Source of the DNA: Vulcanisaeta sp.
Lineage (GTDB): Archaea > Thermoproteota > Thermoprotei > Thermoproteales > Thermocladiaceae
Reading direction: 5' to 3'
DNA: 47,998 nt
NCBI GenBank assembly: GCA_022014875.1
Contig: JAKMAE010000001.1
Location: 1 to 47,998 of the forward strand
Below the pieces are notes generated by a model that saw only the letters and a program-made list of their open reading frames with translations, did no database searches and had not been told where the DNA came from. Numbering within the stretch: position 1 is the stretch's first letter; every line of letters starts with the position of its first letter. Position numbers and translations under genes: made by a program. Shown here piece after piece: positions 41,365 through 42,971 of this stretch.

Positions 41365-42033
41365 TTAACCCTTTACACCAACGATAACCTCCCTAGGCCT
41401 AGCATCATCGCTCCACTCAATACTCATCAACGCATTGTCGTCGTGATAATACACCCAATCCGTAACCCACCTACCAGTCAATAGGTACACCACGAGGGCC
41501 GTGGCGATTAACTCGTGGTTATTCAACGCCTTTATTAACAATGCCGTCACCACAGCCATGGAAATGGACGAGGACAGTACAGCATAGGGTAAGGCGCTGG
41601 ATGATCCGCCGAAGGCGGCAATAAGTATTGCCAGGATCATTAGGGGTAAGGTTATGAGTAGCAGGGGCTCGGTCCTCCTCGGCGCCAATCTAAAAAGTGG
41701 CGTTGGCGGTCTTTGATACAACACGTGGTGGAAAACCTCGTGCATTATGACCCTGCCAAGCAACGTCCGAGGCTTTGCCAGAAGCCCCGTGGATATGTAT
41801 ATGCGGGAAACAAACCTGTAAGGCATGTATACGGAGTATGCTCCAAACAACTCGGTCATTACGTCCGAAACAAGCACCTTGACTGGGTCGTACCCACAGT
41901 TAACAAGGGCCCTATTCACCTCATTAATGAACTGCTCGAATGTGAGGTCACCAACCTCGAACTTATATAATACAGGCCTTAACCTATTGATGATGTCCAA
42001 ATACCTGGAAACCCAGGGCGGTGCCTTGGCCAT
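41365..42033 (-). CDS. Predicted membrane protein with HExxH metallopeptidase motif
   Basis: 222 aa. The first 95 residues are soluble; HEVFHH at residues 98-103 in GRVIMHEVFHHVLYQ forms an HExxH zinc-binding motif, preceded by a hydrophobic residue pattern as in gluzincin peptidases. Two hydrophobic stretches follow (LLLITLPLMILAILIAAF and AVLSSSISMAVVTALLI), then NNHELIATALVVYLL with a candidate third ligand Glu174. The layout recalls M48 or DUF-type membrane metalloproteases, but overall family membership is not recognised. The promoter TATATTTAAA region upstream (42061-42070) supports the ATG at 42033. Confidence 0.75.
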   Translation of the reverse strand: MAKAPPWVSRYLDIINRLRPVLYKFEVGDLTFEQFINEVNRALVNCGYDPVKVLVSDVMTELFGAYSVYMPYRFVSRIYISTGLLAKPRTLLGRVIMHEVFHHVLYQRPPTPLFRLAPRRTEPLLLITLPLMILAILIAAFGGSSSALPYAVLSSSISMAVVTALLIKALNNHELIATALVVYLLTGRWVTDWVYYHDDNALMSIEWSDDARPREVIVGVKG

Positions 42034-42098: not shown

Positions 42099-42971
42099 CT
42101 AAGGTGCCTTTTTAAGTACGAGCATGTAATGATACGGAGAAACCTCAAGAACCTGCTCCCTCACAAAGCCCTCCCTAGTGAAATATTTCTCAACCTCCTC
42201 AGGGCTCAACTTGAAAGGTGGACCAAATAATACATCCTTCTTAAACTCTATAATTAGTAATTTACCTCCAGGCTTCAAAATTCTGCCTACCTCCTTAACC
42301 ACCAGCTCCTTATCATCAATATCATGGAAAACATTAGACATGAAGGCTAGATCAACACTACTACTGGGTATTGTGGTTCTCGTAATATCCTCATTGAGGA
42401 TTATCACATTGCTGTAATTACCCAATTCCCTCCTAACAACATCGAGCGCTTCGTTATCTATATCAACACAGTAAAGCTTCGATGCGAAATCCTTGAAGAA
42501 TCTACAATAATGACCGGTTCCGCAACCGAGGTCAGCAATTACCATACCCTTAGACACGAAGGGTCTGAGGAAGTCATAATTGCCAAAACCCTCCTCATAT
42601 CTGTGCCTGTGCAGGTGATGTTCGTGATGTTCGCCATGCGTTGGACCTATGGCCTCGGCAAGCCTCCCCTCAATGAATGCCTTGATTGCGTCTTCGGCCT
42701 TTCCATTGAAAATATATATCTTAATGCCGTTTCTAGTAGCCACTTGGAATCCTCGCGGCCCTATTTCTGACAATATAACGGTGTTTACGCCACGCTCTAA
42801 TACGCCTCTGAACATGTGGATTCCCCTAGCATGGGTTGCGTACTTTGCTGGGTTTTCAAAGCGCTCTATAATTTCGTAGGAGCCATCTTCGTGAACATCC
42901 ACAATCCACACCTCATCACCCTCCCCAGGGCCTGATACGTAGCCATTACTCACGGATATCGCGATCTTCAT
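42099..42971 (-). CDS. NifX/NafY-like domain fused to a class I methyltransferase
   Basis: 290 aa in two parts. Residues 1-110 are a dinitrogenase Fe-Mo cofactor biosynthesis (NifX/NafY) fold: MKIAISVSNGYVSGPGEGDE, ENPAKYATHARGIHMFRGV, TVILSEIGPRGFQVATRNGI. A His-rich linker follows (112-123, HGEHHEHHLHRHR). Residues 137-245 are a SAM methyltransferase with motif I IADLGCGTGHY and post-I VDID, plus NVFHDIDDKELVVKEVGRILKPGG. A metal-responsive methyltransferase is suggested but not proven. No nif genes are nearby. Confidence 0.85.
   Translation of the reverse strand: MKIAISVSNGYVSGPGEGDEVWIVDVHEDGSYEIIERFENPAKYATHARGIHMFRGVLERGVNTVILSEIGPRGFQVATRNGIKIYIFNGKAEDAIKAFIEGRLAEAIGPTHGEHHEHHLHRHRYEEGFGNYDFLRPFVSKGMVIADLGCGTGHYCRFFKDFASKLYCVDIDNEALDVVRRELGNYSNVIILNEDITRTTIPSSSVDLAFMSNVFHDIDDKELVVKEVGRILKPGGKLLIIEFKKDVLFGPPFKLSPEEVEKYFTREGFVREQVLEVSPYHYMLVLKKAP

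Follow-up and report, generated by a model that had tools for sequence, protein, structure and literature searches.

We found that the window, namely the whole 47,998-nucleotide stretch of Vulcanisaeta sp. DNA that was analysed, encodes a protein in which a NifX-type domain is joined through a His-rich linker to a class I SAM methyltransferase (Table 1). The fusion is real and is conserved across two genera. In addition, its NifX-type domain is not a nitrogenase chaperone, and we tentatively place the protein in metal and sulfur homeostasis.

Table 1 Positions of the features described in the text. Positions without a prefix are those of the window, and residue numbers (aa) are those of the fusion protein; prefixed positions are those of other loci and genomes.
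Feature	Position	Strand	Evidence
Fusion-protein CDS, 290 aa plus stop	42099..42971	-	ORF call, Pfam, orthologue comparison
NifX-type (PF02579 Nitro_FeMo-Co) domain, aa 1-111	42639..42971	-	Pfam; phmmer and Foldseek match to 2re2 (Ta1041)
GPGEG, aa 14-18, where the canonical HFG cofactor-ligand motif stands elsewhere	42918..42932	-	Alignment; PMC8496260
Disordered His-rich linker, aa 112-129	42585..42638	-	His counts; AlphaFold2
Linker core HGEHHEHHLHRHR, aa 112-124	42600-42638		
Class I SAM methyltransferase domain, aa 130-290, 3i9f/3dh0 family	42102..42584	-	Pfam, phmmer, profile, Foldseek
SAM-binding motif I DLGCGTG, aa 147-153, with C150	42513..42533	-	Orthologue alignment
C156, clade-specific cysteine	42504..42506	-	Family alignment
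C168, clade-specific cysteine before motif II acidic residue	42468..42470	-	Family alignment
H216-D217, invariant His-Asp of the methyltransferase family	42321..42326	-	Family alignment
GPP motif, aa 250-252, invariant in the sampled family	42216..42224	-	Family alignment
222-aa protein with HEVFH	41368-42033	-	
CDF-NifX and methyltransferase loci, some closely related	L308:755-2541, L309:1920-3706, L310:1090-3010, L317:1501-3448, L322:1498-3305, L323:1486-3874		
Tandem double NifX-type protein, 278 aa	L315:1505-2338		
Degraded GPGE-type NifX pseudogenes, 7-8 stops	G255:C1:1827870-1828220, G382:C1:613264-613617		

The preliminary description of this DNA had read a NifX-like domain, a His-rich linker and a methyltransferase in one chain. 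This reading was confirmed, since both domains lie in a single ORF and scored above the Pfam cut-offs (Nitro_FeMo-Co on aa 16-100, 37.2 bits versus 26.3; Methyltransf_11 on aa 147-240, 73.1 bits versus 21.2). The closest solved structures in the phmmer search were split by half: Ta1041 of Thermoplasma acidophilum (PDB 2re2; 84.8 bits) matched aa 1-118, and 3i9f, a type 11 methyltransferase of Sulfolobus solfataricus (108.6 bits), matched aa 138-288. Foldseek with the predicted model returned the same pair (TMt 0.87 and 0.82, respectively). Furthermore, AlphaFold2 (45-row alignment) predicted two confident domains (pLDDT about 97) and disorder at residues 114-129; the pTM was 0.62, and the model shows a tether between the two domains but no docking. 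Directly downstream on the same strand, the Vulcanisaeta loci inspected have a gene for a protein of 222 aa that contains an HExxH motif and hydrophobic segments but has no Pfam match, and it is a possible operon partner of the fusion.

The same domain order was then found in relatives. The intact single chain occurs in 13 further genomes of Vulcanisaeta and Thermoproteus (46-73% identity), so that the fused orthologues comprise 14 sequences from two families and two genera (g1, Vulcanisaeta, including complete genomes; g7, Thermoproteus). In a plasmid search with the whole fusion as query, 0 records covered 80% of the query. Some draft genomes show a split gene, as would be expected if an assembly error or a frameshift had joined two genes. 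However, in these drafts (L035, L036 and L040, three Vulcanisaeta JCM genomes) many neighbouring genes are also broken, and thus draft sequencing frameshifts are the likely cause. Complete genomes of both genera hold one intact ORF, and the 13 intact orthologues refute an artefact, the probability of which we regard as practically negligible. The preliminary description had named two observations that would speak against the fusion, its absence from relatives and the presence of two genes with a frameshift. Two genes do exist in some relatives, but they are genuine, separate and unlinked stand-alone genes rather than frameshifted fusions.

These stand-alone counterparts of the same two families were found in Caldivirga, Thermocladium and Sulfolobaceae, which we take to be the lineages handled as f1 g2, g4 and f29; named records support Caldivirga. 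To survey co-occurrence, 397 Thermoproteota genomes were searched with thresholds of 155 bits for intact GPGE-type NifX proteins and 170 bits for the methyltransferase. The former were present in 34 genomes, and all 34 also had a high-scoring, Cys-bearing methyltransferase, as separate genes in 22 and fused in 12 (broken in one draft), the fused ones being counted for both by construction. These counts are given without a P value, as the surveyed genomes are phylogenetically clustered. Meanwhile, the methyltransferase reached the threshold in 42 genomes, leaving out G397, whose copy is without the Cys pair. Eight Sulfolobaceae genomes have the methyltransferase without an intact NifX-type gene, and therefore the methyltransferase does not need this gene; in two of them (G255 and G382) a degraded NifX pseudogene lies in a genome that kept the methyltransferase. 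Both proteins are absent in the sister genera f1 g3, f2 g5 and f2 g8. In Thermoplasmatota, the methyltransferase profile matches so many genomes (169 of 245) that co-occurrence is uninformative there.

In the trees of both domains, the fused forms stand near the stand-alone forms of Caldivirga and Thermocladium. A single fused clade was not rejected (p-AU 0.296 for the N domain and 0.508 for the methyltransferase), and the same trees are compatible with a fusion or with the splitting of a fused ancestor in Caldivirga. In addition, the reduced Nanoarchaeota Nanobsidianus and Nanopusillus (L041, L042 and L044) have a Cys-bearing methyltransferase and no NifX-type gene. Their copies are nested beside a Caldivirga copy in the tree, which suggests horizontal transfer.

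The N-terminal half is a member of the PF02579 superfamily by its score above the curated cut-off and its Foldseek match to 2re2, and it shares a fold family with NifX, NafY and the NifB C-terminal domain. The cofactor ligand of NafY and NifX is the HFG His (H121 and H35, respectively; PMC8496260, PMC13128457), and both proteins work with nif genes; the fusion has neither. The HFG motif aligns with GP-G here, without a His, and GPGE is invariant across the sampled Thermoproteota subfamily. In its own genome, which is 80% complete, there is no match to the nitrogenase component PF00148, which agrees with the earlier remark that no nif genes are near, and the fusion gene is the sole PF02579 match. 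Since the HFG His and a nitrogenase component are both absent, the NifX-type domain is not a nitrogenase chaperone. The earlier term "FeMo-cofactor-type" thus holds for the superfamily but not in the strict sense, the cofactor-ligating His being replaced. That a methyltransferase captured a true FeMo-co/NifB-co chaperone is favoured by the PF02579 match, but this is very improbable given the replaced His and the genome without PF00148.

A different comparison is offered by IssA of Pyrococcus furiosus, which has the same domain (IPR003731/PF02579) followed by a disordered cationic C-terminal tail; it binds inorganic Fe and S and stores thioferrate, and a role has been proposed for the tail (PMC5524996). 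However, the IssA tail has 70 residues, is rich in Gly, Arg and aromatic residues with one Cys, is not His-rich and is not followed by an enzyme. The fusion protein has no such long tail, and its linker has about 18 residues and is His-rich.

The codons of the linker core HGEHHEHHLHRHR are a mixture of CAT and CAC, and thus the His run is not a triplet-repeat artefact. All 14 orthologue linkers have 3-9 His in 15-21 residues, versus 2-7 His in the remaining residues (about 270). Linker sequence and length differ among the orthologues, and the His content is retained. The preliminary description was right on the His-rich linker, whose metal binding is putative. Meanwhile, a His-rich C-terminal tail (for example, PTHEEHHHH) is usual among the GPGE-type NifX proteins that stand alone in Sulfolobaceae, Caldivirga, Thermocladium and Thermoplasmatota; of 43 stand-alone NifX-type proteins, 34 carry 4 or more His among their 20 C-terminal residues. 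Ta1041, a stand-alone member of the same subfamily, shares the GPGE motif and has the natural tail PTHDHGHHH, but no methyltransferase is attached to it. Some stand-alone methyltransferases of the family have a His-rich N-terminal arm, such as MRRMHHHLHHGYVS, and His makes up 7.7% of their first 20 residues versus 2.0% elsewhere. Thus, the linker is the natural junction of two His-edged proteins, and it corresponds to the His-rich tail with which stand-alone NifX-type proteins naturally end.

The methyltransferase domain belongs to the 3i9f/3dh0 family, as it has motif I (DLGCGTG), the motif II acidic residue, the HD/HE and GPP motifs and a profile match. The aligned sequence of 3i9f has the same GCGxGxYC and YCxD cysteines and the same HD and GPP motifs, but 3i9f is a stand-alone protein without the NifX-type domain. 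3dh0 of Aquifex aeolicus is more distant (113.7 bits versus 205.8 for 3i9f with the family profile). DLGCG, C156, C168, H216-D217 and G250-P-P are invariant among the fused forms. Furthermore, every one of the 26 Thermoproteota subfamily members sampled (three of which, or close kin of them, are now in Nanoarchaeota) has both C156 and C168; in the five outside members of the same alignment, T/S/A and A, respectively, stand in their place. Rare subfamily exceptions have lost C156. Their gain as a pair suggests that the two cysteines form a disulfide or share a metal site. Two other families were considered and rejected, namely arsenite methyltransferases (ArsM; PRK11873, 35.5 bits versus a curated cut-off of 263) and UbiE/MenG quinone methyltransferases (NF001244, 44.2 versus 216 bits; TIGR01934, 43.6 versus 158.35 bits). 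Text searches of the literature turned up no functional study of Ta1041, 3i9f, 2re2, the fusion or a named methyltransferase linked to persulfide.

In several archaea, a NifX-type domain is fused to a CDF cation-efflux pump, and 6 of the 15 CDF-NifX loci also have a class I methyltransferase gene, either overlapping or at a distance of one gene. At these loci the NifX-type domain is tied physically to metal transport and operonically to a methyltransferase. Most of the six adjoin genes for MinD/Mrp-like (Fe-S P-loop) ATPases, and the one that was scanned has ferredoxin domains. They differ from our fusion in the partner order, in their distant methyltransferase subfamily and in having KFG, RFG, FG or HFG instead of GPGE. 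Although the methyltransferase subfamily is another one, this independent analogy supports the view that NifX-type domains and methyltransferases are partners in a metal-related function. Elsewhere, two genes for MinD/Mrp-like ATPases that have ferredoxin motifs come after the tandem double NifX-type gene of L315.

The fusion gene is flanked by housekeeping-type genes in Vulcanisaeta; the flanks differ in Thermoproteus and also look like housekeeping genes. TusA, DsrE and FAD oxidoreductase genes lie about 4-6 kb from the fusion gene in two Thermoproteus loci. In seven Sulfolobaceae genomes of two genera, a PadR gene runs into the start of the NifX-type gene or, in one genome, stops a few bases short of it, and the PadR product is His-rich at its N terminus. 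The PadR stop lies at or near the GPGE-type NifX start at loci L131, L180, L183, L185, L189, L192 and L194. YqjI is a nickel PadR protein and provides an analogy for this His-rich partner. In addition, a rhodanese-like gene follows the methyltransferase gene in one Sulfolobaceae genome.

Distant relatives of the methyltransferase (67-110 bits with profile A3; GPP in 10 of 13 tested) were also examined. TauE, rhodanese, TusA, DsrE or DUF302 neighbours were found at 7 of the 14 annotated loci (Paenibacillus, Haloarcula marismortui, Cohnella, Cytobacillus, Rubrobacter, Halomicrobium and Haloarcula litorea). The relatives with this sulfur context have about 26-33% identity, are without the clade-specific Cys pair and are all on plasmids. 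Neighbours in Paenibacillus, Cohnella, Cytobacillus, Rubrobacter and the haloarchaea also include a CsoR-type regulator, OsmC and thioredoxin. Furthermore, a Methylosinus relative lies beside FeoB/FeoC, and a Nostoc relative, which is without GPP, lies beside heavy-metal regulators. There was no clear sulfur context at the Listeria, Priestia, Peptoclostridium, Enterococcus and Haloterrigena loci. As a control, 39 genes of the Cohnella plasmid included none of these sulfur genes except a generic MBL-fold protein. At 66 further genome-scan loci, some of them not of the close family, a limited query set found no sulfur neighbours in 64 and only thioredoxin in two. The sulfur and metal context of the relatives is thus suggestive but not general.

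Taken with the PadR genes and the CDF-NifX fusions, the context of the methyltransferase relatives points to metal and sulfur handling. The reading that we prefer, with somewhat less than even confidence, is a two-module enzyme of metal/sulfur homeostasis, in which an S- or metal(loid)-methyltransferase would carry a tethered module for binding a metal or metal-sulfide. We infer that the NifX-type domain and its His-rich tail would bind a transition metal or an anionic metal-sulfide species rather than FeMo-co, by analogy with relatives that hold NifB-co or thioferrate, and that the two domains would cooperate, the flexible disordered tail holding the NifX-type module beside the methyltransferase. 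The latter would methylate a small sulfur or metal(loid) nucleophile, such as sulfide, persulfide, a thiol or a metal(loid)-thiolate. In hot springs rich in sulfide and metals, this methylation may serve detoxification or trafficking, and other thermoacidophilic archaea would use the same two proteins as separate gene products. The conservation of the fusion, the 34/34 co-occurrence, the His-rich tails and arms, PadR, CDF-NifX, the sulfur and metal neighbours and IssA count for the homeostasis reading. Against it stand the housekeeping-like flanks of the fusion gene, the distance of the plasmid relatives with sulfur operons, the 64 of 66 further loci without such neighbours in the limited-query search, the eight Sulfolobaceae that keep the methyltransferase alone, and the methyltransferase of the CDF-NifX operons, which is a distant class I relative. 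In addition, His would be partly protonated in an acidic cytoplasm and would bind metal more weakly.

A more specific proposal, which we hold to be rather unlikely, is that of a metallochaperone tethered to the methyltransferase, whose NifX-type domain and His arm would pass a metal, a metal-sulfide or bound sulfur or metalloid on to the enzyme in an undescribed metal-sulfide/persulfide methylation system. It is similarly doubtful that such a system is common to thermoacidophilic archaea, fused or separate, and is paralleled by the CDF-NifX/methyltransferase operons.

Another candidate substrate is an organic metabolite (a quinone, a lipid or a small thiol), with the NifX-type domain acting as a regulatory metal or redox sensor that delivers no metal. 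The Sulfolobaceae that lost the NifX-type gene yet kept the methyltransferase fit such an accessory regulator, some of these archaea make S-methylated quinones, and UbiE/MenG and BioC are the best models. These models, however, are far below threshold (44 bits versus cut-offs of 216 and 185), and the sulfur and metal context of the relatives also argues against this idea. Quinone methylation was ranked lower because Nanoarchaeota have the methyltransferase: Nanopusillus and Nanobsidianus are reduced symbionts that are not expected to respire with quinones. On the whole, we consider the organic substrate unlikely, though still credible. The role of the joined parts could also be structural, with C156-C168 as a stabilising disulfide, the linker as a soluble spacer and the domains joined for co-expression or dimerisation. 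Stabilising intracellular disulfides are common in hyperthermophilic crenarchaea, the two cysteines co-occur within a single clade of hyperthermophiles and are jointly replaced elsewhere, and the linker is disordered and variable in length. Yet His richness is kept without sequence in linkers, tails and methyltransferase N termini, and NifX-type domains, metal transporters and methyltransferases are associated independently elsewhere; thus, we find a purely structural role distinctly unlikely.

The preliminary description had proposed a metal-sensing or metalloid-methylating enzyme. A metal role is plausible in view of PadR, CDF-NifX and the sulfur/metal operons, but the arsenite methyltransferase family did not hold. 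Three invariant cysteines (C150, C156 and C168), an ArsM among the Foldseek fold matches and the geothermal setting might indicate an ArsM-like arsenite or other metalloid methyltransferase with a metal-binding domain. However, the ArsM score is far below its cut-off, C150 is the ordinary Cys of DLGCG, and the fold match is generic to class I. The three cysteines lie in the SAM motif region and presumably not at the ArsM positions. An ArsM-like enzyme is therefore improbable.

NifX-type proteins are widespread in organisms without nitrogenase, and most of them are without assigned function. The conserved fusion is a Rosetta stone that ties one NifX subfamily (structure 2re2) to one methyltransferase family (structure 3i9f), both of which structural genomics left without an assigned function. 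The context suggests a testable role for them in metal/sulfur homeostasis, and Sulfolobaceae, which include laboratory strains amenable to genetics, have the two partners as separate genes.
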